Assembly (NCBI RefSeq): GCF_000717655.1
Contig: NZ_JNZY01000022.1
Location: 62,001 to 126,000 of the forward strand
Direction: 5' to 3'
Length of the DNA: 64,000 nt
From: Streptomyces katrae
GTDB taxonomy: Bacteria; Actinomycetota; Actinomycetes; Streptomycetales; Streptomycetaceae
Position numbers and translations under genes: made by a program. Numbering within the stretch: the first letter of the stretch is position 1; every line of letters starts with the position of its first letter. Under the pieces are notes generated by a model, which had not been told where the DNA came from, did no database searches, and saw only the letters and a list, made by a program, of their open reading frames with translations. Below are positions 5,680-23,457 of the stretch, piece by piece.

Positions 5680-5754
5680 ACCCGGGCCCCGCGGGGTCGG
5701 CCGTCCTTCCCCGATCCCGAACCGCCGTCGAATGACGTTCCGTAGGTGACGACA

Positions 5755-7524
5755 ATGCAGCTGAAGACGCCCGGATTCGATGCCCAGGTCAAGGCGGCCG
5801 CCGAGCGGGCGCGTGCCTGCGGCCTGGCCGCCGACGCGATACGGATAGCGGCCACCCTCGACGGGATGGTCCCCGAGCAGGTCGGCCGAGCGGCCATGGG
5901 GCTCGGCGAGCGCGTGTACACGGAGATCGCCGAGTCCCAGGTGGCCGGTTTCGCTCCGACCGGCGGACCCGAGGCCGGGGACGGGGCCGATGGCCCGGCC
6001 CGCGCCGGAGCCGGCACCGGCGCCGACAGCGCCGCCGGGGACCTGCTGGTGCTGACCGGGACCGGGCGGCTGCGCGTCGTCCCGGCCGGTACGCAGCCCG
6101 CCGGCGGCGAGGACGGCGAGCCGCTCGGCACCCTCAAGTGGCAGTCCCGGCCGGAGTCCCTGGGCCGGCTGTGGACCCTGGCCCAGGACGTCCAGCGGCT
6201 GCAGTTCGAGGAGATCCACCGCTGGCTCGCGCAGCAGGGCGCCGAGCCGGTCCGCGAGCGGATCGACGCCGTCGCGCACGCCCTGGTCCACATGGCCCCG
6301 GTGCTGCTGTACGTCGGCGACCGCTTCTACAGCAACCTCGGCAAGTTCAGCAATCTGCCCGGGCGTTCGATGGCTCCGGGGGCCGAAGGGTCCGTGCTCA
6401 CCGCGCTCCGGGAGACCCCGGCCGCGCACTGGTCCCCCGAGGACGCCACCTTCGTCGTGTGCATGTACGCGCTCATCAGCTCGGGTTCCCCGGTCCGGGC
6501 CGAAGAGTTCAACGGCGTACAGCTGGCCCCGGACCGGCTGTCGGACTTCCTCCGCGAGCGCATCGAGGCGTACGGGGCCGAGCTCCCGGACCTCGCCGGC
6601 GAGCCGACGGGCGCCGCGCTCGACGCCCTGGCCGCCGCCTGCGCGGGCGGGCGGGCGGAGCTGTTACGCCGCGGCGCCGTGTTCTACCGGGAGATCAACG
6701 GCGCCTCCCTGCACAAGCGGGAGCGGATCATGGCCGAGCCCCTGGGCTGGGACGAGCTCCCGGCGCCGGTGGCGGGCCTGCTCTCCGGCGTCGCGGGCCG
6801 GCCCTTCCCCGTCGCGGCCTCGCCCGAGACGGTGCGGGCGTACGCCGAGGAGGCCGTGGAGCGCGTCCTGCGGCTGGCCCCGCCCGCCGGGTTCACCAGC
6901 GCGTACGAGGGGTTCCTCCACCGGTTCTTCGAGACGCTGGCCGACGCCCTGGACTGCGACGTCGTGATGGGCCGCGGCCCCAAGAGCGTCGCCGTGCTGC
7001 ACAGCGACCACCCGGCCGAGGACCGGATAGCCCTGGCCACCCGCGACTTCTACTGCTGCGTCGCGCCCGGCGGCGCCTTCGCGCGGAAGTTCGCCGACGA
7101 CCGGTCCGCACTCGCCCGGACCCTGTCCGCGTACAGCGCGCGGATGCGCTACAACACCTGGCACTACCTGCCGCACAGCATGTCCTGGACCGAGGAGTCC
7201 CCGGGCCGCGACGACTGGTTCTTCGCGCCGATGACGGCCGACATCACCAACTGGTCCGACCAGCACCACACCGGACACGTCACGTTCGGCGTCCGGCACG
7301 CCCTGCGCGTCCCGCTCGGCATCGTGCTGGAGGGCGCGTACCGTCCCGGCCTGTACGACCTGCGGCTGCTGCGCACCTCCGGCGCCGAGTTCGAGCTGCA
7401 CCACCTGCGGGCGGCCATGGTGACGGGCCGGATCCAGGCGCTGCTGCACCAGGCGGCCGCCGACCGGGGCCTGGAGGTCGGCGACTTCGACAACGGCTGG
7501 TACCGGGCCTTCCATGGCTCCTGA
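5755..7524 (+). CDS. Unknown 589-residue protein inside the hydrazine cassette
   Basis: I do not recognise this family. The N-terminal third is Ala/Gly-rich and includes an acidic, probably flexible stretch near residues 65-105. The rest contains many conserved-looking Trp, His and Tyr residues, for example NTWHYLPHSMSW and WSDQHHTGHVTFG, which could form a metal or substrate site. No signal peptide or membrane helix is seen. It lies between the GNAT and amidase genes and overlaps the amidase by 11 bases, so it is probably part of the hydrazine-synthon pathway. An N-N bond-forming step is one possibility, but that is speculation. The start at 5755 was chosen because AGGTGA lies just upstream; a GTG at 5746 falls inside that ribosome site. 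Residue 304 is a TTA codon (6664-6666). Confidence 0.75.
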   Translation: MQLKTPGFDAQVKAAAERARACGLAADAIRIAATLDGMVPEQVGRAAMGLGERVYTEIAESQVAGFAPTGGPEAGDGADGPARAGAGTGADSAAGDLLVLTGTGRLRVVPAGTQPAGGEDGEPLGTLKWQSRPESLGRLWTLAQDVQRLQFEEIHRWLAQQGAEPVRERIDAVAHALVHMAPVLLYVGDRFYSNLGKFSNLPGRSMAPGAEGSVLTALRETPAAHWSPEDATFVVCMYALISSGSPVRAEEFNGVQLAPDRLSDFLRERIEAYGAELPDLAGEPTGAALDALAAACAGGRAELLRRGAVFYREINGASLHKRERIMAEPLGWDELPAPVAGLLSGVAGRPFPVAASPETVRAYAEEAVERVLRLAPPAGFTSAYEGFLHRFFETLADALDCDVVMGRGPKSVAVLHSDHPAEDRIALATRDFYCCVAPGGAFARKFADDRSALARTLSAYSARMRYNTWHYLPHSMSWTEESPGRDDWFFAPMTADITNWSDQHHTGHVTFGVRHALRVPLGIVLEGAYRPGLYDLRLLRTSGAEFELHHLRAAMVTGRIQALLHQAAADRGLEVGDFDNGWYRAFHGS

Positions 7525-8971
7525 GCTGCAGTACGCCGACATCCGCAGCCTCCGCGCGGCGTACGGGGACGGCAGCCTGCTGCCCTCGGAGCACCTGGCC
7601 GCCACCTTCGCGCTGCTGGACCGGTGGGAGCCGCGGATCGGGGCGTTCCTGACCCTCGCCCGCGAGCGCGCCACGGCCGAGGCCGAGGCCGCGGACCGGC
7701 TGCTCCACCGGTACGGGAAGTCCGTCTGGGCGGACCGGCCGCTGCTCGGCATGCCCGTCTCGGTCAAGGACCTGACCCCGACGGAGGGCGTCCGGACCAC
7801 CCGCGGCTCCCTGCTGCACGCCGACGCCGTGCCCCGCCGGGACGCACCGGCCGTGGCCCGGCTGCGGGCCGCGGGCGCCGTGGTCATCGGCAAGACCAAC
7901 ACCACCGAGGGCGGGTGGAGCGCGGCCGGGGTGAACCGGCTGCAGGGTCCGACGCGCAATCCGTGGGATCCCGCCCGTACGCCCGGCGGGTCCAGCGCCG
8001 GTGCGGCCGCCTCGGTGGCCGTGGGCATCGGCGTGGGCGCCACCGGCACCGACGGCGCCGGGTCGATCCGCATCCCCGCGTCGTTCTGCGGGGTCGTCGG
8101 GTTCAAGCCCTCGCTGGGCCGGATCCCGTACGTCCCGCAGAGCCCGGAGGAGCTGTCCCACCTGGGGCCGCTGACCCGGACGGTGGCCGACGCGGCCCTG
8201 CTCACGCAGGTGATGTCCGGCTACGACGCGGGCGATCCGCTGTCCTTCGGGGTGCCCGGCGAGCCGACCGGGGACCCCGAGGCCGCGGCCGGGCGGCTCC
8301 CGCGGCTGCGCATCGGCTGGATCCCCTCGCTGGGCGATCCCGCGCCGCAGCCCGGCATCGCGGCCGCCGCCCGGCGTGCCGTCGAGGCGCTGGCCGCCCG
8401 GGGGCACACGGTCGAGGAGATCCCGCCGCCGTTCGAGGACCCGTACCCGGCGCTGGAGACGATCCTGGCGGGCTGGGAGGCGGCTGCCCACACGCGCGAC
8501 CTGGACGAGGTCGCAGACCGCCTCGACCCGGGCCGGCTCGAGGTCATCCGGTACGGGCGCGGGCTGAGCGCCGCCCGGCTGGCCAGGGCGTACGAGACGC
8601 GGGCCGTGCTGCGGGCCCGCAGCCAGGCCCTGATGGAGCGGTACGACCTGCTGGCCATGCCGACCGTGGCCATCGAGCCGTTCGCCGCCGAGCTCCACGA
8701 GCCGCCGGACCCGGTCCGCAAGGGCGCCCTGTCCTGGCTGGCGTGGGCGCCCGAGGCCTACACGTTCAACCTGACCGGCCAGCCCGCGGTGTCCGTCCCG
8801 GCGGGCCGCTCGCCCGGGGGCCTGCCCGTCGGCCTGCAACTGGTGGGCGGCCGCCATGACGACCTGCGGGTCCTGGCCGCCGCGTACCAGCTGGAACAGG
8901 CGCACCCCTGGCACCACGAGTACGCAGCACTCACCGCACCACGCCCGGAAACCGAAGGGGAACCGACATGA
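7514..8971 (+). CDS. Amidase-signature family hydrolase (FzmO-like)
   Basis: This 485-residue protein has the full Ser-cisSer-Lys machinery: Lys85 in VSVKDLTP, the cis-Ser in TPGGSSAG (158-163) and the nucleophile Ser184 in GTDGAGSIRIPAS. The family hydrolyses or transfers amide and hydrazide acyl groups. In the fosfazinomycin/kinamycin route an amidase acts on acetylhydrazine so that hydrazine can pass to a glutamyl carrier. It overlaps the gene before by 11 bases and the glutamine-synthetase-like gene after by 4, which supports one operon. The family is certain; the substrate is inferred. Confidence 0.87.
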   Translation: MAPELQYADIRSLRAAYGDGSLLPSEHLAATFALLDRWEPRIGAFLTLARERATAEAEAADRLLHRYGKSVWADRPLLGMPVSVKDLTPTEGVRTTRGSLLHADAVPRRDAPAVARLRAAGAVVIGKTNTTEGGWSAAGVNRLQGPTRNPWDPARTPGGSSAGAAASVAVGIGVGATGTDGAGSIRIPASFCGVVGFKPSLGRIPYVPQSPEELSHLGPLTRTVADAALLTQVMSGYDAGDPLSFGVPGEPTGDPEAAAGRLPRLRIGWIPSLGDPAPQPGIAAAARRAVEALAARGHTVEEIPPPFEDPYPALETILAGWEAAAHTRDLDEVADRLDPGRLEVIRYGRGLSAARLARAYETRAVLRARSQALMERYDLLAMPTVAIEPFAAELHEPPDPVRKGALSWLAWAPEAYTFNLTGQPAVSVPAGRSPGGLPVGLQLVGGRHDDLRVLAAAYQLEQAHPWHHEYAALTAPRPETEGEPT

Positions 8972-10539
8972 CGAAGCCCACCACCGCGCGGGAAGCCGGC
9001 GAGCGCCGCTACGCCCGCTTCGCCACCGGCAGCGTCGGCTTCGTCGAGCGGCACGGCCTGTGGAACGCGGAGCAGCGGTCCGCGGCGGACGCCCTGGAGG
9101 AGACCCTGTCGGGCCTCGAGTTCGTCCGGGTCGGCTTCGGCGACCCGCACGGGCTGATGCGCTCCAAGACCCTCACGGTCGACGCCTTCCGCACGGCGCT
9201 GCGCAACGGCATCGACATGAGCCCCGGCCCGTTCGTCTTCGACACCGGCCACGCCGTGGGCGTCGACTTCTTCGCTCCCGGCGGCGGGATCGGCATCCCC
9301 GAACTGACCGGCGCCGGCGACTTCCTGATCGTCCCCGACCCGCTCACCTTCAAGGTGCTGCCGTACACCGAGGCGGCCACCGGCTGGGTCATCGCCGACG
9401 AGTACCTGCGCGACGGCAGCGCCCACCCGCTCTCCAGCCGGGCCGTGCTGCGCCGCCAGTGCGCCCGGGCCGCCGAGCGCGGCCTGAGCTACGTCGTCGG
9501 CCTGGAGGTGGAGTGGTACGTGACCCGGCTGGCCGGCGCCCGGGAGCACGGCCCGGCGGCCGCCTCGGCCACGGCCGCCGCGGCGGTCGGCGGGTTCGGC
9601 GTGCAGGGTGAACCGCCCGCCGTCGAACCGGTCAACAGCGGCTACCAGTTCAACCTCGACACCTTCACCGACGGCCTCATGCACGTCATCACCCCGCTGG
9701 CGCGCGCCCTGCGCGAGCTCGGCCTGCCGCTGCGCACCGTCGAGCACGAATCGGGGCCGGGCCAGCTGGAGTTCACCTTCAGCCCGATGAACGGCCTCGA
9801 CGCCGCCGACGCCATGCTGCTCTTCCGTACGGTCGCCAAGCAGATCTGCGCCCGCCTCGGCCACCACGCCTCGTTCATGGCGCTGCCCCGGCTGGAGCGC
9901 TTCGACCCGAGCGGCTGGCACCTGCACCAGTCGCTGTTCGACACGGCCGCCGACCGCAACGCCTTCGTACCCCGGGAGGGCACGGCCCTGCTGTCGCACG
10001 AGGGGCTCGGCTACGTCGCCGGGCTCCTCGAACACGCCGCGGACATCGCGCTGTTCGCCATCCCGACCGTCAACGGGTACCGCCGGCTCGACGAGCAGTT
10101 CTCGCTCTCCCCGGACCGGGTCGTGTGGAGCGCCGAGAACCGGGGAGCCCTGGTCCGCGTGCTCGGCGGCCCCGGCGAGGAGTCCACGCACCTCGAGAAC
10201 CGGATCGGCGAGCCCTGCGCCAACCCGTACCTCTACCTCGGCTCGCAGCTCGCCGCGGGCCTCGACGGCATCGAGCGCGGGCTGCGGCCGGGCGGTCTCG
10301 CGCAGGACCCGCACGCCCCCACGGAGGCGGCCCTGCCGCGCGACCTGGCCGAGGCCGTGGCCGCGATGGAGGGCAGCGCCCTGGCCCGGGACCTGCTGGG
10401 CAAGCCGCTCCACGACTGCCTCGCGCAGCTCAAGCGCAGCGAGGTGGCGCGGTTCGGCGCCTGGCTGGCCGGCTCGGGTCCCGCCGGGCCGGGCGAGACC
10501 ACCGTATGGGAACACCGTGAGTACTTCGGCGCCTACTGA
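8968..10539 (+). CDS. Glutamine-synthetase-like ligase, probably making glutamyl-hydrazide (FzmN-like)
   Basis: This 523-residue GlnA-family protein has a beta-grasp N terminus (VRVGFGDPHGLMRSKTL) and the catalytic barrel with GLEVEW, ESGPGQLEFTFSP, GWHLHQSL, NGYRRL and a late ENRIGEPCANPYLY segment. The family joins glutamate's gamma-carboxylate to an amine through gamma-glutamyl phosphate. Homologues in the fosfazinomycin and kinamycin clusters put hydrazine on glutamate as a carrier. It is longer than typical housekeeping GS enzymes (about 470) and is clustered with biosynthetic genes, so it is unlikely to be the nitrogen-assimilation enzyme. Its start overlaps the amidase stop by 4 bases. 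Confidence 0.87.
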   Translation: MTKPTTAREAGERRYARFATGSVGFVERHGLWNAEQRSAADALEETLSGLEFVRVGFGDPHGLMRSKTLTVDAFRTALRNGIDMSPGPFVFDTGHAVGVDFFAPGGGIGIPELTGAGDFLIVPDPLTFKVLPYTEAATGWVIADEYLRDGSAHPLSSRAVLRRQCARAAERGLSYVVGLEVEWYVTRLAGAREHGPAAASATAAAAVGGFGVQGEPPAVEPVNSGYQFNLDTFTDGLMHVITPLARALRELGLPLRTVEHESGPGQLEFTFSPMNGLDAADAMLLFRTVAKQICARLGHHASFMALPRLERFDPSGWHLHQSLFDTAADRNAFVPREGTALLSHEGLGYVAGLLEHAADIALFAIPTVNGYRRLDEQFSLSPDRVVWSAENRGALVRVLGGPGEESTHLENRIGEPCANPYLYLGSQLAAGLDGIERGLRPGGLAQDPHAPTEAALPRDLAEAVAAMEGSALARDLLGKPLHDCLAQLKRSEVARFGAWLAGSGPAGPGETTVWEHREYFGAY

Positions 10540-10635
10540 CGCGGGCCGCCGGGGACGGTCAGGGACCCGGCCGGACCACCGCATGACTTCCGTACGGCGA
10601 CGGCCCGTGGCGGACCTTCCGAAGGGATATGAACA

Positions 10636-12574: not shown

Positions 12575-13774
12575 CTACCGGCCGCGCGCGTCCACCAGCT
12601 GCGCCACCCGCGACTCGATCCCCGGATCGTGGGAGGCGAACTCCGCGCGGCGTGCCTTCTCCTCGGCGCGTACGCGGTCCAGGACCGGCCCGGTCCACGG
12701 GGCGTCGAGGACGACGCCCCACAGGGGCCGGAGGCGGGCGGCCCGGGACACCTTGGCCTGGAAGGCGTCGCAGCTCAGGTCCACGGAGCGGTAGCCGTGG
12801 GCCGCCGCGTACTGCACGGCCTCGTAGTAGGTGAGGTTGAAGTACAGCTTGGCCTCGCGGGCGATGGAGTCGTCCAGCCCGTGCGAGCGGGCGTACATCG
12901 TGTCCCCCCAGAAGAAGTACTGGGTGAAGCCCACCATCCGGTCGCCCTGGTAGGCCGCCAGGATCCGGCAGTTGTCGTCGAACAGCGTGGCCTGCTGGGC
13001 GAAGCGCTCCGACTCGCTCGCGTCCGTGACGGGATGGCCGTAGCGGATCAGCACCTGCGCGGAGAGCGGGCCGAGCAACTGGTGGCATTCGGAGAGGCGC
13101 TTCACCTCGGTACGGCAGCCGGCATCGGTGTAGCGGCGCATCTCCCGGCGGATGGACGTGAACTGGTGCGAGGTGAACCGCCTGCGGTACCCCTCCAGGC
13201 CGTCGGGGTCGACGGGCAGGACCGCGGTCGCGTCCATCATCACCACCTGGTCCCGCGGGCCCAGCAGCGGCAGCAGCCGCTCCACCGACTCGTCGGTGAG
13301 GTAGAGCAGGGCCGCCAGGGCGCCGTCGGCGGCGCCCAGGGCGCGGAAGCGGTCCAGTACGGTGCGCACGCCCGCCGTGGCGAGCGGCCCGGCGGTGCCC
13401 GGGGCGACGATCACCTCGCTGGTGTAGCCGAGGCGGGTGCCGCCGAGGAGCAGCGGGCGCTCGGGCGTGGCGGGCTCGGCGGCGCCGGGGAACAGGACGG
13501 CGGGATCGTAGAAGTGCGGGACCTTCCCGGTGAAGCGGTGGGTGGGCAGGCCGGCGACGTACGAGCCGCCCGAGGAGGCGACCAGGTGGCGGGAGCCGGA
13601 GTCGTGCAGCTCCTCGCCGTAGAGCAGCCAGCGGTGGCTCGAGTAGAGGGCGGCGTCACCGGCGAGTGCGTTCCACTCGTCGACGTCCGCGTCGCGTATC
13701 GAGGCGAGCTCGACGAGCTCCGGGCCCCGCGGGTCCTGCGTACCGTCGGCCACGCCGTCCGTCCCTGCCGTCAC
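12575..13774 (-). CDS. GNAT/Fem-like acyl- or aminoacyl-transferase
   Basis: This is a 399-residue protein of the large GNAT type related to Fem-like and peptidogalycan proteins. The segment FTSIRREMRRYTDAG resembles the Fem-like 'S.RR..R.A...G' pattern, and the C-terminal half carries the acceptor domain with AAYQGDRMVGFTQYFF and LYFNLTYYEAVQYAA. Some members use aminoacyl-tRNA, others acyl-CoA. It ends the minus-strand operon of the cluster and starts with GTG at 13774. It might add an acyl or aminoacyl group to the product or protect an amine. The fold call is moderate and the role is open. Confidence 0.65.
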   Translation of the reverse strand: MTAGTDGVADGTQDPRGPELVELASIRDADVDEWNALAGDAALYSSHRWLLYGEELHDSGSRHLVASSGGSYVAGLPTHRFTGKVPHFYDPAVLFPGAAEPATPERPLLLGGTRLGYTSEVIVAPGTAGPLATAGVRTVLDRFRALGAADGALAALLYLTDESVERLLPLLGPRDQVVMMDATAVLPVDPDGLEGYRRRFTSHQFTSIRREMRRYTDAGCRTEVKRLSECHQLLGPLSAQVLIRYGHPVTDASESERFAQQATLFDDNCRILAAYQGDRMVGFTQYFFWGDTMYARSHGLDDSIAREAKLYFNLTYYEAVQYAAAHGYRSVDLSCDAFQAKVSRAARLRPLWGVVLDAPWTGPVLDRVRAEEKARRAEFASHDPGIESRVAQLVDARGR

Positions 13775-13826: not shown

Positions 13827-14876
13827 TCACCCGGACGCCCGGTCGAGGATGCGAAAGTCGGCCATTGCGTCGTCGATGCGCAGGTAGGCGAGCCGGGCGG
13901 CCGTCGCGCCGCGGCGGGCGTACATGCCGGCGGCGGCGGCGGTGAGTTCCCCGGGGTCGGCCTGAGGGTCGGTCTCCAGGTGGTCCGACACGGTCGTCTG
14001 GACGAGGTCGGAGTCGGCGTCCACCGCCATGCGCTCGGTCAGCGTGACCGTGAGGCCGTAGCCGTTCTCCGCGGCCCAGGCGCGCAGTTCGCCGCCGATG
14101 ACGAGCTCCCGGTCCGCCTGGAGGAGGAGTCCGGTCAGATGGGCCGTCCCGCCCGCGCCCAGATGCCGGGGCAGTCCGGCCAGGACCCGGCGGCCGATGC
14201 CGAACCCGTCCTCGCCGCCTTCGTGGGCGGCCTCCTCGCCGCGGGCCGACAGGGTCGGCAGGAAGGGGATGTTGGCGATCACGCGGTCGTACGGCTCCAC
14301 CCCGGCCGGGAGCGGGCCGTACAGGTCGCCGACGAGGACCTCGATCCGGTCGTCCATCCCGTTGATCTCCGCGTTGAGCCGGGCCACTTCGGCCGTCTCG
14401 GGCAGCAGCTCCACCAGCGTGGCCCCGGCCCCCCGCTGCGCGGCCACCAGTCCCTGGAAGCCCGGCCCGGAGCAGAGGTCGAGGACGCGGTCCCCCGCCC
14501 GGCAGCCGGTGCGGCGGGCCAGGGCGACGGAGTCCCGGCCGAAGTAGTGGCGCACGGGGAAGGGGCTCGGCGGCTCCGCGAAGAGCCACACCCCCGCGGA
14601 GCGGAACAGGCTGACGTCGACCAGCCGGACCTCGTCCCCGCGCCGGACGGCGACCCCGCTCTCGACCAGGGCGGGCAGCGCCTGCGCGAGGGCGGCCGGC
14701 AGCCGGTCGGCCGCCACGGGCTCCCCGAGCAGCAGGAACCCGGCGAGGGCGCGCAGCTCCCCGTCGAGGCCGCGGGTGGCGGCGGCCCATTGGAGGCGGT
14801 CCACCGAGTCCCCGGGGAAATCGGCCAGGAACTCGGCCAGCCCGGAGCGTTCGAGCGCGGTGACGAACCGCGTCAC
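13827..14876 (-). CDS. SAM-dependent methyltransferase with N-terminal helper domain
   Basis: This 349-residue protein has about 130 N-terminal residues that look like a winged-helix or dimer domain. A class I methyltransferase follows, with motif I VLDLCSGPGFQGL and an IANIPF segment resembling the NPPY motif of HemK/RsmC-like N-methyltransferases. Fosfazinomycin needs one O-methylation of phosphonoacetate and one N-methylation of a hydrazide; the NIPF motif favours N-methylation here, by inference. The GTG start at 14876 overlaps the dioxygenase stop by 4 bases, indicating translational coupling. Confidence 0.78.
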   Translation of the reverse strand: MTRFVTALERSGLAEFLADFPGDSVDRLQWAAATRGLDGELRALAGFLLLGEPVAADRLPAALAQALPALVESGVAVRRGDEVRLVDVSLFRSAGVWLFAEPPSPFPVRHYFGRDSVALARRTGCRAGDRVLDLCSGPGFQGLVAAQRGAGATLVELLPETAEVARLNAEINGMDDRIEVLVGDLYGPLPAGVEPYDRVIANIPFLPTLSARGEEAAHEGGEDGFGIGRRVLAGLPRHLGAGGTAHLTGLLLQADRELVIGGELRAWAAENGYGLTVTLTERMAVDADSDLVQTTVSDHLETDPQADPGELTAAAAGMYARRGATAARLAYLRIDDAMADFRILDRASG

Positions 14877-15784
14877 AGGACGGCCCCGGCCGCGGCGGCA
14901 CCCTCGCCGTGTTCCGGGAGCCCGATCCAGGTGCGGAGCATCAGCCGGCCGCCGTCGACCGGCTCCTCGTCGTCGAACGCGGTCCGGCCGTGCACGATCG
15001 ACCGGTTGTCGATGAAGATCATCTCGCCGGGCGCCAGCCGCCCGTGCGTCTGCAGATCCCGCCGGTCCAGCAGCGAGTCCAGCAGGTCCAGCGCCTTGAC
15101 CTGCTCGGGCGTCAACGGCGGTACGTGCGGGTGCCGGTGCCCGATCTCGATGTAGTCCCGCAGGTAGTACATCCGCTCCCGGCCGCCCCTGAACTCCAGG
15201 ACGGGACGCTCGGTCGTCAGCGGCACCCCCGGGGTGTCGTCCCGGGTGTCGAAGTGGACGGGCAGCCGCAGCGCCGCGAGCTCCTCGGGGTGGGCCCGCA
15301 GGATCTCCAGCAGATCGCTCACGTGCACCGTGACCAGCGCTCCGCCGCTGGAGGCCTGCCGGAAGCAGAACAGCGTGAAAATGTCCGGAAGCCGCCCCGG
15401 CCGGTGCGCCGCGTCCGTGTGCAGGCTGCCGCCCTGCCGGCTGTCCGAGTAGCGGCCCGTCGCCCCCTCGCCGAGTCGCACGCCCCGGTCCCGTACGTCC
15501 CGCAGCAGGGCCCCCGCACCGTCCTGCGGCAGCAGGTCCCCGGCCAGCCGGGAGACCGCCACCGTGAACCGGCGCGCCTGCTCCTCGGTGAGGTGGTCCA
15601 GGCCGCCGAGCACGAAGTACCCGGGCCGGGCGTCGAGGTGGCGGCGCACGTACTGCCGGATGCTCTCCCCGAACTCCCGGTACCGGTCCGCGCGTACGTC
15701 CTCCTCCCCGCTCTCGGCGACGGCCGTCGCCAGGGTGCGGTCGACGGGGTGGCGGACGGTCGAGAACGGATCGTTGCTGTTCAT
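14873..15784 (-). CDS. TauD/TfdA-type Fe(II)/2-oxoglutarate dioxygenase (FzmG-like)
   Basis: This 303-residue protein has the facial triad HTD in GGSLHTDAAH, the distal His in NRSIVHGRT and the oxoglutarate Arg in RLMLRTWIG. These enzymes hydroxylate or oxidise small acids. In fosfazinomycin biosynthesis one such enzyme oxidises phosphonoacetaldehyde to phosphonoacetate and later hydroxylates its methyl ester. Placement beside a methyltransferase and below pepM and ppd fits that role and explains why no aldehyde dehydrogenase is present. The ATG directly abuts the ATP-grasp stop and the 3' end overlaps the methyltransferase. Confidence 0.85.
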   Translation of the reverse strand: MNSNDPFSTVRHPVDRTLATAVAESGEEDVRADRYREFGESIRQYVRRHLDARPGYFVLGGLDHLTEEQARRFTVAVSRLAGDLLPQDGAGALLRDVRDRGVRLGEGATGRYSDSRQGGSLHTDAAHRPGRLPDIFTLFCFRQASSGGALVTVHVSDLLEILRAHPEELAALRLPVHFDTRDDTPGVPLTTERPVLEFRGGRERMYYLRDYIEIGHRHPHVPPLTPEQVKALDLLDSLLDRRDLQTHGRLAPGEMIFIDNRSIVHGRTAFDDEEPVDGGRLMLRTWIGLPEHGEGAAAAGAVL

Positions 15785-17122
15785 TCAGACTCCCAAGGCC
15801 TGGCTGCCGAGACGCTCCGGGACCAGTCCCGAACCGCGCAGCCACACGGCTATCTCTTCCGCGCAGTGCGCGACCCCCGAAACCCCGCTGCCCCCGACGG
15901 CCCGGAGCACCGCCCCGGCCGTCGCGCCGCGGCTGTCACCGCAGGCCAGGACCTGGGTGACGATGTTGTCGAGCACGACCGGCCTGCGCACGTCGAGGGC
16001 GCAGTTGTACGTCACCCCCGGCTCGGGGACCAGCTCCAGGGCGGTGATCCGGCCGGGCGCCCCGTCCGCCGCCGGCTCGATGAACAGGCGGGCCTCCAGA
16101 CAGTGCGTGTCCCGGTCGACGCGGATGCGGCCGGGGGCGGGCGCCGCGCCCTGCGCGAGCTCCATCTGGAGGGCCACCACGTCCAGGCCGGTCTGCGCCT
16201 CGCACATCCGGTAGGCCAGCGGCAGCCGGCCGTTGACCTCCAGGAAGTAGTGGCCGCGGGCGCCGACGATGAACTCGACCGTCGCCACGCCCCGCAGCCC
16301 CATCCCGGTGACGAGCCGGGCCGTGTCCCTGCGCATCCGCTCCAGCAGCTCCGGCGCCACGCCCTCGACCGGGGAGGCCTCCAGCAGTTTCATGCTGCCG
16401 TCGACCAGCAGGCTCTCCCGCTCGCCGAGCGGGTGCACGGTCCCGGCGTCGTCGACGGCGACGGTGACCCCGACCACCCGCCCCTGCTCCACGTACCGCT
16501 CGGCGTACCAGTCGGTGCCCTCGCCGCCGACTGCGGCCGCGTGCCCGCCCGAGCCCCCGTCCCTGCCGTCGTCCTCGTCCCGGGCGATCAGGGCGAGTGC
16601 CTGCTCCGCCTCGGCCTCCGTCTGCACGATGCGCACGCCGAGGCCGCCGCAGCCGGTGACCGGCTTGAGGATGACGGGCAGTCCGATCTCCTTGACCAGC
16701 CCGGCTATCTGCCGGTGCCCCGTCGCGTGCGGCAGTACGGGCAGGCCGAGCCGGTCGGCGGTGGCGACCGCGTGGTCCTTGTCGCGGGCCGCCGCGAGCA
16801 CCTCGGCCGTCGGCCCGATGAAGGAGATCCCGGCCGCGGCGAGCTGCCGGGGCAGCTCCGGGTCCTCCGCAAGAGCCCCGTAGCCCGGGTAGACCGCGTC
16901 GGCGCCGCAGCGCCGGGCCGCCTCGACGATCCGGCCCACGTGGTCGTACGTCTCCGCGAGCCCGGCGCCCTCGAGGTACTCGCACCCGTCTGCGGCGAGC
17001 GTGTGGAACCGCTGGGGGTCCGACAGGGCGACGACGGCGATCGGCGACCATCCCAGCGTGCGGAAGGTGTCGACGGCCCGGGCCGCGATCGCACCGCGGT
17101 TGGCGATCAGGACTCTTTTCAT
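15785..17122 (-). CDS. Biotin-carboxylase-fold ATP-grasp ligase
   Basis: This 445-residue protein has the biotin carboxylase N domain (KRVLIANRGAIAARAV), an ATP-grasp domain with ILKPVTGCGGLGVRIV and EFIVGARGHYFLEVNGR, and the C-terminal domain. The carboxylase motif usually read as RLQVEHxVTE is RLPLAYRMCE here, so residues needed for the bicarbonate/biotin chemistry are missing, and no biotin carrier or carboxyltransferase is encoded nearby. It is therefore more likely an amide- or hydrazide-forming ligase. Activating the phosphonate carboxylate for coupling to a hydrazide is an attractive inference. A GAGAAGG ribosome site precedes the ATG at 17122. Confidence 0.8.
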   Translation of the reverse strand: MKRVLIANRGAIAARAVDTFRTLGWSPIAVVALSDPQRFHTLAADGCEYLEGAGLAETYDHVGRIVEAARRCGADAVYPGYGALAEDPELPRQLAAAGISFIGPTAEVLAAARDKDHAVATADRLGLPVLPHATGHRQIAGLVKEIGLPVILKPVTGCGGLGVRIVQTEAEAEQALALIARDEDDGRDGGSGGHAAAVGGEGTDWYAERYVEQGRVVGVTVAVDDAGTVHPLGERESLLVDGSMKLLEASPVEGVAPELLERMRRDTARLVTGMGLRGVATVEFIVGARGHYFLEVNGRLPLAYRMCEAQTGLDVVALQMELAQGAAPAPGRIRVDRDTHCLEARLFIEPAADGAPGRITALELVPEPGVTYNCALDVRRPVVLDNIVTQVLACGDSRGATAGAVLRAVGGSGVSGVAHCAEEIAVWLRGSGLVPERLGSQALGV

Positions 17123-17142: not shown

Positions 17143-17904
17143 TCAGTGGTCGGGATGCGGCCGGCCGAGCGCCCGGTAGTGCGTGACCAGCCGCCGCCGG
17201 TCGTCGAGCACGTGGAACGCCAGCGCCGGGGCCAGCTCGTAGTCCACGGCGGGCCGGCCCTCGAAGGGCAGCGGGACGGTCGAGGCCACCCCGGGCGCCA
17301 CCAGCAGCGGAAGGCCCGCGAACGTCGTGGCCGCGGCGACGTGCGCATGGCCGCACAGCAGGGCCACGACCTGCGGGTGCCGTTCCAGTACCGCGGCGAG
17401 GCGCTCCTCGCCGAACTGCCGGACCCGGTCCACGTACGGGGTGTGCAGGTCGACCGGCGGGTGGTGGAAGCAGACGAAGACGGGCAGTTCGCCGCCCTCG
17501 GCGGTCAGCGTCTCGTCGAGCCACCGCAGGGTCTGGTCGCTGAGCAGACCCTCGTCGCTGCCCGGGATCGTCGAGTCGCACAGCACGAACACGGCTCCGG
17601 GCGTGCGGACGACCTGGTTCAGCTCCTCGTCCTCCGGCTCGCCGTCGAGCAGGCCGGTGCGGAACGCACCGCGCTCGTCGTGGTTGCCGGGCAGGACCAG
17701 CACCGGGTACGGCAGGTCGAACAGCTTGCGGGCCTGCGCGTACTCGTCGGCCGTCCCGTGGTCGGCGATGTCCCCGGAGACGAGGACGGCGTCCAGGGGG
17801 CCGGGGAGGCCGCGCAGGTAGTCCATGACCGTCAGTGCGCGCTGCGTGGCGCGCTCCGAGAGGTCCAGGTGCAGATCGCTGACGTGGGCGATGACGGTGG
17901 TCAC
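17143..17904 (-). CDS. Calcineurin-like metallophosphoesterase (CpdA-like)
   Basis: This 253-residue protein has all the dinuclear metal motifs in order: HVSDLHLD, SGDIADHG, LPGNHDE, FHHPPV and CGHAHV. It resembles class III cyclic-nucleotide phosphodiesterases, a family that also includes phosphatases acting on nucleotides and phosphonate conjugates. In this operon it could remove a phosphate or nucleotide from an activated or protected intermediate made by the kinase and nucleotidyltransferase. The GTG start overlaps the ppd stop by 4 bases. Confidence 0.82.
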   Translation of the reverse strand: MTTVIAHVSDLHLDLSERATQRALTVMDYLRGLPGPLDAVLVSGDIADHGTADEYAQARKLFDLPYPVLVLPGNHDERGAFRTGLLDGEPEDEELNQVVRTPGAVFVLCDSTIPGSDEGLLSDQTLRWLDETLTAEGGELPVFVCFHHPPVDLHTPYVDRVRQFGEERLAAVLERHPQVVALLCGHAHVAAATTFAGLPLLVAPGVASTVPLPFEGRPAVDYELAPALAFHVLDDRRRLVTHYRALGRPHPDH

Positions 17905-19013
17905 GGCAGGTCGTCCTTCCGGGAGGCGGTCGCCGCGGCCTGGAAGCGGGCCCTGACCTCGGCGTTGGTGTGCGCCGACGTTACCCGCGGCGGGGTGGCC
18001 CCACCCCTGCCGATGTGCAGGGCCACCAGGTGCGGGCCGGGCACCCCCTCGATCTCGGCCATGTGCGCGGTGACTTCCTTGGCCGTGCGGCAGACCCGTC
18101 CCGTGCGGTATCCGGCCGCGAGCGCCAACTCGTCCCAGCGCATGGCCACATCGCGGGTGCGCTGGCCGCCGGTGGAGTCGTACGCGCCGTTGTCGAGCAC
18201 GAAGTGGGTCAGGTTCGCCGGGCGCCGCTCGCCGACGAGCGCGAGCCCGCCGAGGTGCATCACCGCCGCGCCGTCGCCGTCGATGACCACGACCTGCTGG
18301 TCGGGGCGGTTCAGGGCCGTGCCCAGGCCGAGCCCGATGGCGTGCCCCATGGAGCCCTGCATGTAGAAGTTCCGCGGGTTGTCGACGATCCCGAACAGCT
18401 CCCGGCTGATCATGCCGGTGGTGCTGTAGACCAGCGCGTCGCCCAGGTGACCGGCGATGGCGGACACCGCTTCCCGCCGGTCCATCTCCGCGTCCGAGGC
18501 GGCCGCCGGCACCGGATGGGCGTCGACGGTCTTCGCCGGTACGAGGACGACGAACGACCGGTTCTCGCGGCGGGCCTCCTCCGCGCGGTCGAGGAGCCCG
18601 CCCAGGCTCTCCTCGGCCGGGTCGAGGATGCCGTGGGCGACCCCGACGGACTCGAGCACGCCGATGGTCCCGGCGCCCATGGCCGCGTGGTGCGGCTCGT
18701 CGTCCTCGGCGCTCGGCCAGCCCCGCAGGCTGACGAAGAGCAGCAGCGGGATCTCGTACGCCATGGTCAGCGAGGTGAGCGGGTCGAGGAGATTGCCCAG
18801 CCCCGAGTTCTGGGCCAGCACCACGGCCCTGGTCCCGCCCAGCTCGGCGCCGGCGGCCATGGACAGGGCGATGCCTTCGTTGGGCGCCGGTACGTAGCTG
18901 TCCCGCTGCTCCAGCAGCGCGAACGGGCCCTTGAGGAAGGAGCAGGGAACCCCGCTGAAGAACCCGTACCCGCGGCGGTCCAGCTCCGCGCAGAAGAACT
19001 CGGCGCTGATCAT
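17901..19013 (-). CDS. ppd: Phosphonopyruvate decarboxylase
   Basis: This 370-residue thiamine-diphosphate enzyme turns phosphonopyruvate into phosphonoacetaldehyde, the step that makes phosphonate synthesis irreversible. Family marks are GVPCSFLKGPF near the N terminus, NEGIALSMAAG for the cofactor Glu, GDGAAVMHLGG for ThDP/Mg binding, and LDNGAYDSTGGQ, close to the LDNxxxDSTGGQ typical of Ppd. The length is normal. The ATG overlaps the pepM stop by 4 bases. Together with PepM it makes a phosphonate pathway certain. Confidence 0.95.
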   Translation of the reverse strand: MISAEFFCAELDRRGYGFFSGVPCSFLKGPFALLEQRDSYVPAPNEGIALSMAAGAELGGTRAVVLAQNSGLGNLLDPLTSLTMAYEIPLLLFVSLRGWPSAEDDEPHHAAMGAGTIGVLESVGVAHGILDPAEESLGGLLDRAEEARRENRSFVVLVPAKTVDAHPVPAAASDAEMDRREAVSAIAGHLGDALVYSTTGMISRELFGIVDNPRNFYMQGSMGHAIGLGLGTALNRPDQQVVVIDGDGAAVMHLGGLALVGERRPANLTHFVLDNGAYDSTGGQRTRDVAMRWDELALAAGYRTGRVCRTAKEVTAHMAEIEGVPGPHLVALHIGRGGATPPRVTSAHTNAEVRARFQAAATASRKDDLP

Positions 19014-19864
19014 GCGCTCCACTCCTCCCACCGGTTGACCTGCGTGAGACCGAACAGCTCCTTCATCGGGGCGATGGCGTCCTCGACCCCGCCGGTCCCG
19101 CCCTGCAGCCGGATCTCCCCGAGGACGTCGCGCATCGCGGAGACCGAGGCGCGCAGCGCGTGGTTCGCGTAGATCACCATCGAGACTCCCGCTGCCTGCG
19201 CCTCGGCGAGGTCCCAGTGCGGATAGGTGGTCGGTACGACGACCACGGGCGTACGGGCCTGCCAGACCTGGAGGAACTCCACGATCTCGGCCGGCGTGGA
19301 CTCCTTGGAATGGATCAGGATGGCGTCGGCGCCCGCGTCCGCGTACAGGTGGGCGCGGCGCAGTGCCTCGTCGAGCCCGGCCCCGGCGATGAGCGCCTCG
19401 ACCCGGGCGACGACGCTGAAGTCCCGGTCGGTCCGGGCCCGTACGGCGGCCTGGATCCGGCCGGCGAACTCGTCCGCGTCCTCGAGGTTCTGGCCGCCGC
19501 CGAGGAAGCTGTTCCGCTTGGGGAACACCTTGTCCTCGAGGCAGATGCCGCCGATGTCCGCCGCCTCGAACTGGCGGACCGTACGGACGACGTTGATGTT
19601 GCCGCCGAAGCCGGTGTCGCAGTCCGCCAGCAGCGGCAGCGAGGTCGCCTGGTTGACGTGCGAGGAGGCTTCGAGCAGCTCGGACATGGTCAGCAGGCCC
19701 AGGTCGGGCAGGGCCCGGGACGCGGAGATCTCGAAGCTCGACGCCCAAAGGCCGTCGAAGCCCGCCTCCTCGACGAGCAGGGCCGTCAGCGCGTCCCGGG
19801 ATCCGACGATCCGCGCTATCTCTTCACGCTCCAGCAACTCGCGCAGTCGCGCCGCCTTCGACAC
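19010..19864 (-). CDS. pepM: Phosphoenolpyruvate phosphomutase
   Basis: This 284-residue enzyme of the PEP mutase/isocitrate lyase superfamily forms the C-P bond by converting PEP to phosphonopyruvate. The signature EDKVFPKRNS at residues 110-119 matches the EDKxxxKxNS motif that separates true PepM from carboxy-PEP mutases and lyases, and the metal-site loop DCDTGFGG lies at 81-88. The GTG start at 19864 overlaps the preceding methyltransferase stop by one base. It is the hallmark gene of this cluster. Confidence 0.96.
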   Translation of the reverse strand: MSKAARLRELLEREEIARIVGSRDALTALLVEEAGFDGLWASSFEISASRALPDLGLLTMSELLEASSHVNQATSLPLLADCDTGFGGNINVVRTVRQFEAADIGGICLEDKVFPKRNSFLGGGQNLEDADEFAGRIQAAVRARTDRDFSVVARVEALIAGAGLDEALRRAHLYADAGADAILIHSKESTPAEIVEFLQVWQARTPVVVVPTTYPHWDLAEAQAAGVSMVIYANHALRASVSAMRDVLGEIRLQGGTGGVEDAIAPMKELFGLTQVNRWEEWSA

Positions 19865-20565
19865 TATTCCCCGGCCCTCTGCGCGAAGAGGCCGTGGTTG
19901 GTGCCGGCCACGTCCTCCCCGGGCAACTCGAAGACGCAGTGCCAGTGGAAGGAGCCCGGCTTGGCGTGCTCGGCGTCGGTGGCGCTGAGCAGCCGGAACC
20001 CCGCGTGCAGGCGCAGCAGGTCGGCCGCGTCCACGTACATGTGCGGATGCACCTTGTCGTCGGTGGCCCCGGGCTGGCGGAAGGTGTTCGGGCTCACCTC
20101 GTTGCCGCGCCCGTACTCCCCGTTGCGCTTGGAGAGCATCGTGGACTGGTAGATGCCGCCCGGGCGCAGCACGCGCCGGACCTCGTCGAGCACCTTCGCG
20201 AGTCCGGGCTCGTCGTTGTGGTAGACCACGTTGAAGGCGAGGACGTAGTCGAAGCTGTCGTCCGCGTACGGAAGTTCGCCGAAGTCGCCGACTTCGAGGC
20301 CGACCTGCACCCCGCGCTTGACGCTCTCGTCGCGGGCCGCCCGGACGGCGGCCTCGCTGGCGTCGGTGCCGGAGCTGGTGAACCCGGCCTCCGCGAACCA
20401 GAGGGCGTGCCGGCCGACGCCGCAGCCGAGGTCCAGTACGTCCACGGCGCCGAGCTTCTGCAGCCGGGCGGCCTCGTCCACGACCCACGGGTGCGGCCGC
20501 GACCAGTCGCCTGTGCGCCCGCTGTCGGTGCGCCAGACCTCGTCCCAGTAGAGATGGGCTGTCAT
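19864..20565 (-). CDS. Class I SAM-dependent methyltransferase
   Basis: This 233-residue methyltransferase has motif I VLDLGCGVGRHALWFAEAG, an acidic residue in SSGTDAS, and a late LRPGGIY segment. It sits directly before pepM with a one-base overlap, so it is expressed with the phosphonate genes and may be the O-methyltransferase that esterifies phosphonoacetate (FzmB-like); this assignment is inferred from position. GAGGTC precedes the ATG at 20565. The family is certain. Confidence 0.83.
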   Translation of the reverse strand: MTAHLYWDEVWRTDSGRTGDWSRPHPWVVDEAARLQKLGAVDVLDLGCGVGRHALWFAEAGFTSSGTDASEAAVRAARDESVKRGVQVGLEVGDFGELPYADDSFDYVLAFNVVYHNDEPGLAKVLDEVRRVLRPGGIYQSTMLSKRNGEYGRGNEVSPNTFRQPGATDDKVHPHMYVDAADLLRLHAGFRLLSATDAEHAKPGSFHWHCVFELPGEDVAGTNHGLFAQRAGE

Positions 20566-20660: not shown

Positions 20661-22844
20661 TCAGGCGCTGTCGACCGTCTCCAGCAGGCCCGCTTCAAGC
20701 GATCCGTCCAGCAGCGGTCGCATCGCGTCGAGCTCGCAGCCGGCGGCGGCGAGCGCCTCCGACAGCGGCCGGCGCCCGTCGAATCCACGCAGCAGCCGCA
20801 GCCAGTCCGCGTGGGTCAGGTGGTCGATGACGAACCGGATCCCGCCGTCGACCAGGACGTACGAGGTGTTCGCCTCCGCCGCGTCGTCGAGTACGAGCAC
20901 GCCCTCGGCGAGGCGGAACACCGAGGTGTCCTCGATCCGCGCCTGCGGGAACAGCTCCTGGACCTCGGGGCCCTCGAAGTCCGTGACCTGCAGCTCGTAC
21001 GGGGCGGGCCCGGACGGCGCCCGGCTGCCCGGGACGTCCACGGCCATCAGGTCGAGGAGGCCCAGGTTGACCACGCGCATCAGCAGTTCGACGTGCCCGG
21101 AGCTCTGGTCCCGCTCCAGCCGGCGCAGGGCGCGGTGGATGTTCGCGCCGTCGAGGTACTGGGCGGCGCGCGGCGAGGACAGGGCCTGCTCCACGAGCTC
21201 GTCCCCGTTCCGGCCGAGCATCCGGGTGAAGGTGCGGTGCGTGTGGCGCACGCCCTCGCCCTCGTAGAAGGCGAGCTTGGGCCGGCCGATCACCTCGGCG
21301 GGCAGGATGTCCCGTACGGCCTCGCGGATGACCTGCTTGTCCCAGAACAGCCGCTTGCGGTAGGAGCGCGGCACGGTCGCCAGCAGCTCGATGATCCGGT
21401 GGTCCAGGAAGGGGACGCGGGCCTCGACGCCGTTGCCGGAGGCGGTGCGGTCCTCGACCCAGAAGTTGTACTGCTGCATGTCCCGGAACTTCCAGGCCAG
21501 GTAGGAGCCGTACGGGTCGTCCACCGCGCCGGGTGCGTACGCGCCGACGGCGTCGTCGCTGAGCAGCGGCAGGTCGGTGCCCTCCCACCAGACGGAGACG
21601 GAGGACTGCGAGCCGAGGGCCTTGCGGCGGGCCATCGTGCGCAGGTTGCCCTCGAAGTCCTCCCAGTCGCCGCCGCCGGAGAGCGCGACGCTGTAGCCGC
21701 CGCTGAACTCGTCGGCGCCGGAGCCCAGCAGGATCGCCTTGAGCTCGGGCCGCTCGGCGCGGGCGAAACGATACATCTCGCTCTTGTAGAACTGCTCCGG
21801 CCCGCACTGCGGCGTCTCCATCAGCCACAGCAGGCGCCGCCACTCGTCGGGCGAGGGCACCCGGTCGGCCCGGAAGGCCACCTGGTGGTTGGGCAGTCCG
21901 AGCAGGTCGGCGGTGGCGCGGGCGTACTGCGCGTCCTTGTTGACGACGGTGGCGCCGGTCAGCGCGGAGAACGTGTGCAGCCCGGTGTGCGCCGCGAGGG
22001 CGGTGATGGCCGCGGAGTCGAGCCCGCCGCTGAGAAAGACGCCGATCTCGGCGTCGGCGATCAGGCACTCCCGCACGGAGGAGGCGAGCAGGTCGCCCAT
22101 GCTCTGCACGAAGAAGCTCTCGGGGAGGGCGTCGGCTTCGGCCGGCGCGGGCAGCTCCCAGTACCGGTGCACGCGCGTGGCCCCGCCGCGCAGGCTGATG
22201 TCGACGATCGCCCCGGACGGCACGTGATCCACGCCCTTGAACCAGCTGACGGGCTCGTCGTCGGTCATCACCGGCGCGGAGCTGAGCCCCTGGTCGGCGA
22301 GGGCACGCGCCCAGTCGAGCTCGCGCGGACAGTCGGGGTGCGCGAAGAGGGCCTTGACCTCGGAGCCGAAGAGCACGGTGTCGCGGTTGCGGTGGACGAA
22401 CAGCGGCTTGATGCCGAGCCGGTCACGGGCGAGCAGCAGCCGCTGCTCCCGCAGGTCGATGACGGCGATGCCGAACATCCCCCGCACGTCGTCAAGAAAC
22501 GCGAGCCCCTTCTCCAAGTACAGGTGAAGCAGGACCTCGCAGTCACTCTCACTCCGGAAGCGAACCCGCCCCTCGAACCCCTTCCGCAACTCGCGGTAGT
22601 TGTAGATCTCCCCGTTCGCCGCGAGGATGACGTTCCCGTCCTCGCTGATGAACGGCTGCCGTCCGCCCTCGGGGTCGATCAGCGCGAGCCGTGTGAAGGA
22701 CATGCATGCCGGCCCGGTGTGGTGGAACTGCATGTCGTCCGGCCCGCGCGGCCGCAGCGCATGGGCCATGTCGCGGAGAATTGCGTCGGCCGACCCCGCG
22801 AGGGCGCTTCCGTCGGTGTGGGCGAATCCTGCAATTCCGCACAT
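20661..22844 (-). CDS. Asparagine-synthetase-like amidotransferase with C-terminal winged-helix-like tail
   Basis: This 727-residue protein starts MCGIAG, leaving Cys at the N terminus as the Ntn glutaminase nucleophile. The glutaminase site is complete (RLALID near 52, NGEIYNY near 77, SESDCEVLL near 98). The synthetase domain has the pyrophosphate loop SGGLDS at 262-267. Residues about 605-727 are an extra domain whose LLRGFDGRRPLSEAL... pattern resembles a PqqD/RRE winged helix. AsnB enzymes adenylate a carboxylate and attack it with ammonia released from glutamine. Here glutamyl-hydrazide may replace glutamine and the C-terminal Arg of the upstream peptide may be the acceptor; that is inference. 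The in-frame start at 22892 was rejected because Cys must be residue 2. Confidence 0.9.
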   Translation of the reverse strand: MCGIAGFAHTDGSALAGSADAILRDMAHALRPRGPDDMQFHHTGPACMSFTRLALIDPEGGRQPFISEDGNVILAANGEIYNYRELRKGFEGRVRFRSESDCEVLLHLYLEKGLAFLDDVRGMFGIAVIDLREQRLLLARDRLGIKPLFVHRNRDTVLFGSEVKALFAHPDCPRELDWARALADQGLSSAPVMTDDEPVSWFKGVDHVPSGAIVDISLRGGATRVHRYWELPAPAEADALPESFFVQSMGDLLASSVRECLIADAEIGVFLSGGLDSAAITALAAHTGLHTFSALTGATVVNKDAQYARATADLLGLPNHQVAFRADRVPSPDEWRRLLWLMETPQCGPEQFYKSEMYRFARAERPELKAILLGSGADEFSGGYSVALSGGGDWEDFEGNLRTMARRKALGSQSSVSVWWEGTDLPLLSDDAVGAYAPGAVDDPYGSYLAWKFRDMQQYNFWVEDRTASGNGVEARVPFLDHRIIELLATVPRSYRKRLFWDKQVIREAVRDILPAEVIGRPKLAFYEGEGVRHTHRTFTRMLGRNGDELVEQALSSPRAAQYLDGANIHRALRRLERDQSSGHVELLMRVVNLGLLDLMAVDVPGSRAPSGPAPYELQVTDFEGPEVQELFPQARIEDTSVFRLAEGVLVLDDAAEANTSYVLVDGGIRFVIDHLTHADWLRLLRGFDGRRPLSEALAAAGCELDAMRPLLDGSLEAGLLETVDSA

Positions 22845-22883: not shown

Positions 22884-22920
22884 ACATGCCACGCCCCCCG
22901 GTCCGGGAGGCGTGGCATGT
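22884..22920 (-). other. Strong hairpin between the peptide gene and the synthetase gene
   Basis: A perfect 12-bp inverted repeat (ACATGCCACGCC at 22884-22895 and GGCGTGGCATGT at 22909-22920) with a 13-base, partly self-complementary loop lies 9 bases after the peptide stop. There is no U tract, so it is not a classic terminator. Such hairpins between RiPP precursors and their enzymes often protect or partially terminate the message so that the peptide is made in excess. Confidence 0.75.
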
Positions 22921-22929
22921 GGGTCGCTA

Positions 22930-22998
22930 CTAGCGGACAGCGGCGACGATGGTGCCCTGGTCGACCTTCTTGGCCTCCGGCTTGATGTAAACCTTCAT
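22930..22998 (-). CDS. 22-residue putative RiPP precursor peptide ending in Val-Arg
   Basis: The peptide begins MKVYIKPE and ends TIVAAVR. The start is well supported: GGAGG lies 8 bases before the ATG. It is the first gene of the minus-strand phosphonate operon, followed by a hairpin and the synthetase gene. The first half is Lys-rich, with YIKP at residues 4-7 like the YxxP leader motif read by lasso-type PqqD proteins; the second half is small and hydrophobic. The last two residues, Val-Arg, equal the dipeptide of fosfazinomycin A, whose Arg carboxylate bears the hydrazide. I infer a precursor whose C terminus is modified. The alternative is a regulatory leader peptide, but it has no run of one amino acid as attenuators do. 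Confidence 0.75.
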   Translation of the reverse strand: MKVYIKPEAKKVDQGTIVAAVR

Positions 22999-23366: not shown

Positions 23367-23383
23367 GACCTGGTCTTACGAAG

Positions 23384-23457
23384 TCGGGGTGGCGGGATTT
23401 GAACCCACGACCTCTTCGTCCCGAACGAAGCGCGCTGCCAAGCTGCGCTACACCCCG
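23384..23457 (-). tRNA. tRNA-Pro (anticodon CGG)
   Basis: The 74-base cloverleaf has acceptor CGGGGTG paired with CACCCCG plus discriminator A, the D arm GCGCAGCTTGGCAGCGC, the anticodon arm CTTCG-TTCGGGA-CGAAG with CGG at positions 34-36, and the T arm GTGGG-TTCAAAT-CCCGC. CCA is not encoded. It marks the border between the phosphonate cluster and conserved chromosome genes. Confidence 0.97.

Follow-up and report, generated by a model that had tools for sequence, protein, structure and literature searches.

A conserved 22-residue peptide as the likely carrier of an arginine hydrazide in a fosfazinomycin-type gene cluster of Streptomyces katrae

The window, i.e., the whole stretch of 64,000 nucleotides of Streptomyces katrae DNA analyzed here, contains a gene cluster of the fosfazinomycin (fzm) type that is headed by an open reading frame (ORF) of 22 codons, followed by the gene for a homologue of the asparagine synthetase-like enzyme FzmA. 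The encoded 22-mer is likely a carrier, i.e., a precursor peptide, and FzmA is predicted to convert its C-terminal arginine to arginine hydrazide. That the C terminus of the peptide is the source of the hydrazide was the core idea of a preliminary description of this DNA, and it is well supported by the sequence comparisons reported below. If true, fosfazinomycin, which has long counted among the small-molecule phosphonates, would in fact be of ribosomal origin, the C-terminal hydrazide would be a predicted modification of ribosomally synthesized and post-translationally modified peptides (RiPPs), and phosphonate and ribosomal pathways would be linked. Peptide hydrazides are useful handles for ligation chemistry. 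A published dead end would also find an explanation: purified FzmA (XY332) was shown to release hydrazine from glutamylhydrazine in vitro, while with free arginine no adenylation of the amino acid and no argininylhydrazine could be observed (PMC6133997, accessible in part), and FzmA likely fails to load hydrazine onto free arginine because its true acceptor is the C-terminal arginine of the 22-mer. The features central to this reading are the following.

22930..22998, minus strand: peptide ORF MKVYIKPEAKKVDQGTIVAAVR, proposed precursor or carrier peptide of 22 amino acids (basis: sequence, ribosome-binding site, conservation and profile search)
22884..22920, minus strand: GC-rich hairpin between the peptide stop codon and fzmA (folding with shuffled controls)
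20661..22844, minus strand: FzmA-type asparagine synthetase homologue of 727 amino acids, with class II glutaminase, synthetase and C-terminal domain resembling a RiPP recognition element (RRE; approximately residues 640-720)

Conservation of the 22-Codon Open Reading Frame

The ORF is encoded on the minus strand with its ATG at 22998 and a stop codon ending at 22930. The tiny size, the GGAGG placed 8 bases 5' of the ATG, the YIKP at residues 4-7 of MKVYIKPEAKKVDQGTIVAAVR and the C terminus AVR were all found exactly as the preliminary description had them, and domain scans bore out its statement that the ORF is the first gene of an operon including pepM (19010-19867) and ppd (17901-19010). 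An alternative in-frame GTG 5' of the ATG would add three residues, resulting in a peptide of 25 amino acids. NCBIfam models gave no match when compared with five of the 22-mers.

Conservation was analyzed in 43 locus records around FzmA-type relatives, the window included, which correspond to 42 distinct loci (L192 equals L049). From one list of 80 relative loci, eight of Streptomyces or Saccharothrix with 44-50% identity were considered, minus the repeats L052 and L053, and 72 with 26-39% identity were omitted. The locus scan required M..Y.[KR]P and 18-30 residues, so that the motif columns are partly selected and the uniform length is not. A 22-residue YxKP peptide was found in 41 of the 43 records, i.e., in 40 of the 42 distinct loci, always starting with ATG and always on the strand of the FzmA-type gene. 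It lies upstream of the enzyme gene with a gap of 148-395 nt in 38 of the 40 distinct loci, while L031 and L171 carry it at a distance of 5.0-6.3 kb; three copies are present in L041 and two in L031. In L057 and L172, the enzymes of which are 44% and 41% identical to that of the window, the locus scan did not find a YxKP peptide, and both are counted. An 18-residue match inside L044, on the opposite strand, was taken as chance.

Y4, K6 and P7 are shared by the 40 distinct peptides (Y, P and K-or-R being required by the scan). K10 is present in 38 of them and V12 in 35, and positions 15-18 resemble G-T-V/I-L/V. Positions 19 and 20 are the most variable, followed by 13 and 21. Of the YxxPxL leader motif of lasso peptides, YxxP occurs in 40 of 40, Y and P again being scan-required, but leucine never occupies position 9, where A, T, V, S or K stands. 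The preliminary description had made its reading depend on conservation of the ORF and of its C-terminal arginine: the ORF is conserved and the arginine is kept in each of the five hydrazine loci, but family-wide arginine ends eight of the 40 distinct peptides, four of these from the hydrazine loci. Valine is the commonest residue at position 21 (15 of 40).

A peptide profile search over 392 genomes of the genus is free of the M..Y.[KR]P filter. The 136-residue C-terminal part of the window enzyme has matches in 24 of these genomes (E <= 0.001), and a profile of 24 peptides matched with E <= 0.0036 in exactly these 24 and in none of the other 368, with a best value elsewhere of E 0.08. The profile rows came from 18 of the 24 domain-positive genomes; the remaining six (G003, G030, G124, G157, G176 and G229) gave no row, yet all of them were matched. 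The peptide of G229 is one residue and that of G003 three residues off a profile row, and the weakest of the six is G030 with E 0.0036 over positions 1-14 only. A Fisher test of peptide versus domain (24 versus 368 genomes) yields p = 7e-39, which is inflated as 18 of the 24 genomes contributed to the profile; counted fairly, the result is 6/6 versus 0/368. Beyond the genus the enzyme is less frequent: across the class, 3 of 394 sampled genomes have the C-terminal domain, and the whole FzmA-type enzyme occurs (E <= 1e-150) in 11 of 365 genomes of the family, the own genome being included in both counts. These comparisons confirm, at the level of sequence, a genuine conserved gene, far beyond chance, and support that it accompanies the FzmA-type enzyme as a RiPP-type precursor gene. 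They indicate that genes whose annotation says no more than 'asparagine synthase' have a family of very small genes in their vicinity (40 loci here); in three plasmid records the gene tables, which are known to be incomplete, show no annotation at the position of the peptide.

Codon comparison revealed three silent and one replacement difference to L188, a relative with 85% identity, four silent and three replacement differences to L029 (72%), and two silent versus eight replacement differences to the far relative L030, so that the codon test is positive for the near pairs only. The hairpin downstream of the ORF has a folding energy of -40.3 kcal/mol (z -5.35, reached by none of 200 shuffled sequences); its arms are kept in L188 and L029 and no T run follows it. 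The stretches between peptide and enzyme genes show longest paired runs of 9-25 bases (34 folded of 41 peptide records, with a shuffle control for the window only). The hairpin perhaps holds expression of the peptide above that of the enzyme. Just outside, approximately 0.4 kb from the peptide ORF, a tRNA-Pro gene is located at 23383-23457, a possible island boundary.

The FzmA-Type Enzyme and Its C-Terminal Domain

The best sequence match of the window FzmA in the PDB is 7ylz, which we take to be TsnB9, with 174 bits over query residues 1-526, stopping before the C-terminal domain. FzmA was described as an asparagine synthetase homologue (PMC6133997), and 7ylz is a hydroxyamidotransferase (PDB). 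The C-terminal domain of FzmA shows an RRE-like modelled fold and PqqD profile similarity and appears to be an RRE-like, putatively leader-binding domain; YxKP of the peptide fits the YxxP leader motif of lasso peptides. Weighing against this assignment, non-RiPP folds rank slightly above RRE folds, and a Foldseek search of the PDB with the domain gave no match reaching E 0.001. In the glutaminase part, the motif at residues 32-36 of the window enzyme reads PRGPD in 26 and HRGPD in 91 of the 120 homologues listed, with no motif found in three. At the first residue of this motif 7ylz has C and E. coli AsnB has H.

Hydrazine Loci and the Wider Family

Hydrazine genes are present in five loci, i.e., the window, L186/L187, L188/L189, L029/L190 and L030/L191, the peptides of which end, in this order, in AAVR, AAVR, AAVR, ANVR and AVVR (four different peptides). 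All five thus have a Val-Arg C terminus. Their enzymes are set apart from the others by a branch with full support (100/100) and carry PRGPD in 5 of 5, versus HRGPD in 37 of 37 others, which makes PRGPD a possible mark of donor specificity, as a correlate only. No AurF-type gene was found in any of the five within 28-35 kb per locus.

Where hydrazine genes are absent (37 loci, e.g., L033 and L173-L175), the AsnB enzyme with its RRE-like domain and an AurF-type N-oxygenase (37/37) are combined with a nucleotidyltransferase (36/37) and the 22-mer (35/37); a PqqD-like protein and a major facilitator superfamily transporter are often present, and three of these loci are on Streptomyces plasmids. 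The AurF assignment comes from a Pfam AurF match in L031, and the nearest PDB chain is a p-aminobenzoate N-oxygenase. This AurF-type wider family appears to be a RiPP family not described so far, in which the C-terminal carboxylate of the peptide would be the site of the chemistry. An argolaphos-type origin of Val-Arg was considered and dropped, as in the locus of S. monomycini (L050), the species from which argolaphos was first isolated according to the accessible part of the literature, an AurF-like gene goes with a peptide whose last residues are AVV; it is also disfavored by AglA, which by the title of a paper hydroxylates free arginine.

The locus L030/L191 (genome G252) carries FzmH-, FzmI-, FzmN-, FzmQ- and FzmR-like genes next to a peptide ending in Val-Arg, with neither a pepM nor an FzmP match within 34 kb. 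In these five loci the Val-Arg C terminus therefore tracks the hydrazine genes and not the phosphonate genes. Except for KinI/KinJ, the cassette was reported to lack conservation outside the fosfazinomycin and benzofluorene clusters (PMC12154649, accessible in part), to which L030/L191 would be an exception. Its product is perhaps a non-phosphonate hydrazide, at a guess a relative of FR-900137, a compound named in the accessible part of PMC6429109. A further phosphonate setting is found in L168 (genome G030, contig C33), where PepM, Ppd and a helix-turn-helix-cupin protein (4897-6833 and 6878-8266) are encoded approximately 3 kb from the FzmA-type gene (9771-11855). The peptide there is MQKYSKPTTKNVTQRSALTRVA, and an AurF-type gene is also present; the whole may be one cluster or two neighbors.

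Proposed Mechanism

As fold and motif suggest, the RRE-like domain of FzmA would bind YxKP of the peptide, while the synthetase domain would adenylate the terminal carboxylate of R22. The glutaminase domain would split gamma-glutamylhydrazine, the half of the reaction that is published (PMC6133997), and the hydrazine would move inside FzmA to form peptide-Arg-NHNH2. Aminopeptidases would then trim the remaining peptide to Arg-NHNH2, which FzmH would methylate before the phosphonate half is joined. The preliminary description had the phosphonate built on the ribosomal C terminus, which is probably wrong in its order: the phosphonate probably joins after release, as the N-methyltransferase FzmH takes argininylhydrazine as substrate (PMC6133997).

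In a broader reading, which we hold in even balance, FzmA and its relatives constitute a so far undescribed RiPP family, found in Streptomyces and actinomycetes related to it. The 22-mer would serve as a disposable ribosomal handle for the one to four residues at its C-terminal end, and the RRE would hold the YxKP leader while the C-terminal carboxylate takes hydrazine in the fosfazinomycin branch, or ammonia or a hydroxylamine-type nitrogen, with an AurF-like oxygenase, in the rest. Fosfazinomycin would then be ribosomal, possibly with its valine included.

Alternative Explanations

According to the preliminary description, Val and Arg of fosfazinomycin A both derive from the peptide, with aminopeptidase trimming yielding A and B. 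The encoded Val-Arg in all five hydrazine loci agrees with this, but for the valine it is rather doubtful. FzmI is said, in work of Huang from 2016, to add Val from Val-tRNA, so that the encoded V21 need not survive, and re-addition by FzmI would be favored over a valine left from the peptide. FemAB-like genes occur in the window (12575-13774) and in L186, L188 and L030, and valine at position 21 is common in the family at large. A literature search for Val transfer by FzmI found no text on it. FzmH acting on argininylhydrazine also speaks against a peptide-derived valine (PMC6133997). In favor of such a valine, genome G181 (L029/L190) encodes the Val-Arg peptide in a cluster of the fosfazinomycin type that includes pepM, ppd and the hydrazine genes; no FzmI match exists in this genome, and FzmH is matched only weakly and partially. 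G181 is a natural variant that could show whether the valine derives from the peptide.

Alternatively, FzmA could make an ordinary C-terminal amide on the precursor, with ammonia from glutamine, and the arginine hydrazide could be made elsewhere from free arginine. Most relatives have HRGPD and a nearby AurF-type gene without hydrazine genes, and PesC, a relative from a RiPP pathway, takes the nitrogen for its amide from glutamine (PMC13060819, accessible in part). We nevertheless regard this as unlikely for the window, as the hydrazine loci form their own supported clade, differ from the others in PRGPD and show no AurF-type gene within 28-35 kb per locus, and FzmA cleaves glutamylhydrazine in vitro (PMC6133997). 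Less likely still, the 22-codon ORF could be a cis-acting leader, i.e., an attenuator or translational coupler tuning fzmA, and no substrate at all: the short gap to the enzyme gene in 38 of 40 loci and the strong hairpin would suit such a role, but the peptides of L031 and L171 are kilobases away and L041 and L031 have several copies, for which reason an attenuator peptide was dropped; conservation at set amino acid positions (4, 6, 7, 10, 12 and 15-18) and the RRE-like domain of the enzyme also speak against it. A functionless chance ORF would be conceivable in a region where 23 ORFs of at least 20 amino acids overlap 1.2 kb; the genome profile search and the presence in 40 of 42 loci refute it, leaving it a negligible probability.

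Relation to Known Systems

With the FzmA homologue, the five hydrazine-gene types, pepM and ppd, the window resembles the published fzm cluster (PMC6133997). The published account differs from the carrier-peptide reading in that its accessible part mentions no ribosomal peptide and treats arginine as the free acceptor in a reaction that was not demonstrated. Open-access literature, which leaves most subscription journals outside, gave no ribosomal origin of fosfazinomycin among the matches listed, and term look-ups in three RiPP and RRE papers gave none either.

Asparagine synthetase-like enzymes acting on the C-terminal carboxylate of ribosomal peptides have recently been reported in a 2026 preprint (PMC13060819): PesC of nitrilobacillin converts the carboxylate to the amide and further to the nitrile, TsrC and ScdTA are named as C-terminal amidases, and approximately 300 uncharacterized candidates are given. 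PesC uses glutamine nitrogen, goes with an R(V/T)DN motif, requires prior hydroxylation by an MNIO enzyme and still works, although less well, without the leader (PMC13060819), whereas the FzmA system would have a hydrazine donor, a YxKP 22-mer and a fused RRE-like domain. The R(V/T)DN core is absent from the C termini of the 40 distinct peptides, and no MNIO-type domain was found in the cluster scans. A term search of the main text of PMC13060819 showed no mention of FzmA, TsnB9 or Streptomyces. As such C-terminal chemistry on RiPPs is already known (PMC13060819), the new part would be the hydrazide-forming, RRE-fused branch with its YxKP 22-mer that feeds a phosphonate pathway.

The likeness to the lasso machinery (B1 RRE and AsnB-like C protein) consists of the YxxP leader motif, the RRE-like fold and an enzyme of the asparagine synthetase family. 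A lasso peptide was dropped as the window FzmA scores 170 bits with the lasso-cyclase model NF033535 (cut-off 525); moreover, the variable end is too short for ring and tail, the RRE-like domain is fused behind the synthetase, and the donor nitrogen would replace the peptide amine. Pathways of the peptide aminoacyl-tRNA ligase (PEARL) type, which lead to pearlins, are similar in that a ribosomal peptide undergoes chemistry at its C terminus and is discarded afterwards; they differ in that LanB-like enzymes extend this C terminus from aminoacyl-tRNA. Scans of the cluster proteins showed no LanB-like domain. TsnB9 takes hydroxylamine off a glutamyl carrier and places it on a carboxylate (PMC6133997); unlike what is proposed for FzmA, an enzyme of this type has a small-molecule acceptor, and the 7ylz match lacks the C-terminal domain of FzmA.

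Gene Content of the Cluster

The window was called fosfazinomycin-type, in agreement with the preliminary description, because its gene types match the published ones and its operon order that of the fzm cluster. The order of the first operon presumably agrees with the names fzmA to fzmI, which reportedly go back to Huang (2015 and 2016).

19864..20565, minus strand: S-adenosylmethionine-dependent methyltransferase, presumably FzmB by gene order (domain scan)
19010..19867, minus strand: phosphoenolpyruvate mutase PepM (Pfam PEP_mutase 183.7 bits, cut-off 31.5)
17901..19010, minus strand: phosphonopyruvate decarboxylase Ppd (NCBIfam 333 bits, cut-off 312.5)
17143..17904, minus strand: metallophosphoesterase, presumably in the FzmE position (domain scan)
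15785..17122, minus strand: ATP-grasp protein, biotin-carboxylase-like, presumably in the FzmF position (domain scan)
14873..15784, minus strand: TauD-type 2-oxoglutarate dioxygenase, presumably in the FzmG position (domain scan)
13827..14876, minus strand: HemK-like methyltransferase, presumably in the FzmH position (all model scores below cut-off)
12575..13774, minus strand: FemAB-like/GNAT acyltransferase, presumably in the FzmI position and with the Val transfer role (domain scan)
8968..10539, plus strand: glutamine-synthetase-like gene, FzmN type (domain scan; gene type in PMC6133997)
7514..8971, plus strand: amidase, FzmO type (domain scan)
5746..7524, plus strand: protein without Pfam match, FzmP/KinJ position (Pfam scan)
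5275..5679, plus strand: GNAT N-acetyltransferase, FzmQ type (domain scan)
3981..5288, plus strand: adenylosuccinate-lyase-like gene, FzmR type (domain scan)
462..1415, plus strand: nucleotidyltransferase-like protein with GS...DxD motif, homologue in nearly every related locus

The pepM, ppd and AsnB homologue genes stand in one operon, and all five hydrazine-gene types are nearby in the window, i.e., the glutamine synthetase, amidase, hypothetical protein, N-acetyltransferase and adenylosuccinate lyase types shared by the fosfazinomycin and kinamycin clusters (PMC6133997). With the best NCBIfam model, PEP_mutase, PepM reaches 304.6 bits, slightly below the cut-off of 319.55. The metallophosphoesterase has no match in L188/L189. 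The nitrite-forming pair FzmM/FzmL is not among the ORFs scanned, which do not cover the whole window, and no leader peptidase or protease was seen in the Pfam scans of the cluster proteins; host peptidases may take this role. The conservation of the nucleotidyltransferase-like protein matches that of the peptide, with homologues in 5 of 5 hydrazine loci and 36 of 37 others. A PDB sequence search with it gave one chance-level row (E 0.3), and the window copy has no Pfam match, while its homologue in L032 scores 20.7 bits with NTP_transf_2 (cut-off 21). A lasso cluster was also reported to have a nucleotidyltransferase gene (PMC10368454, accessible in part).
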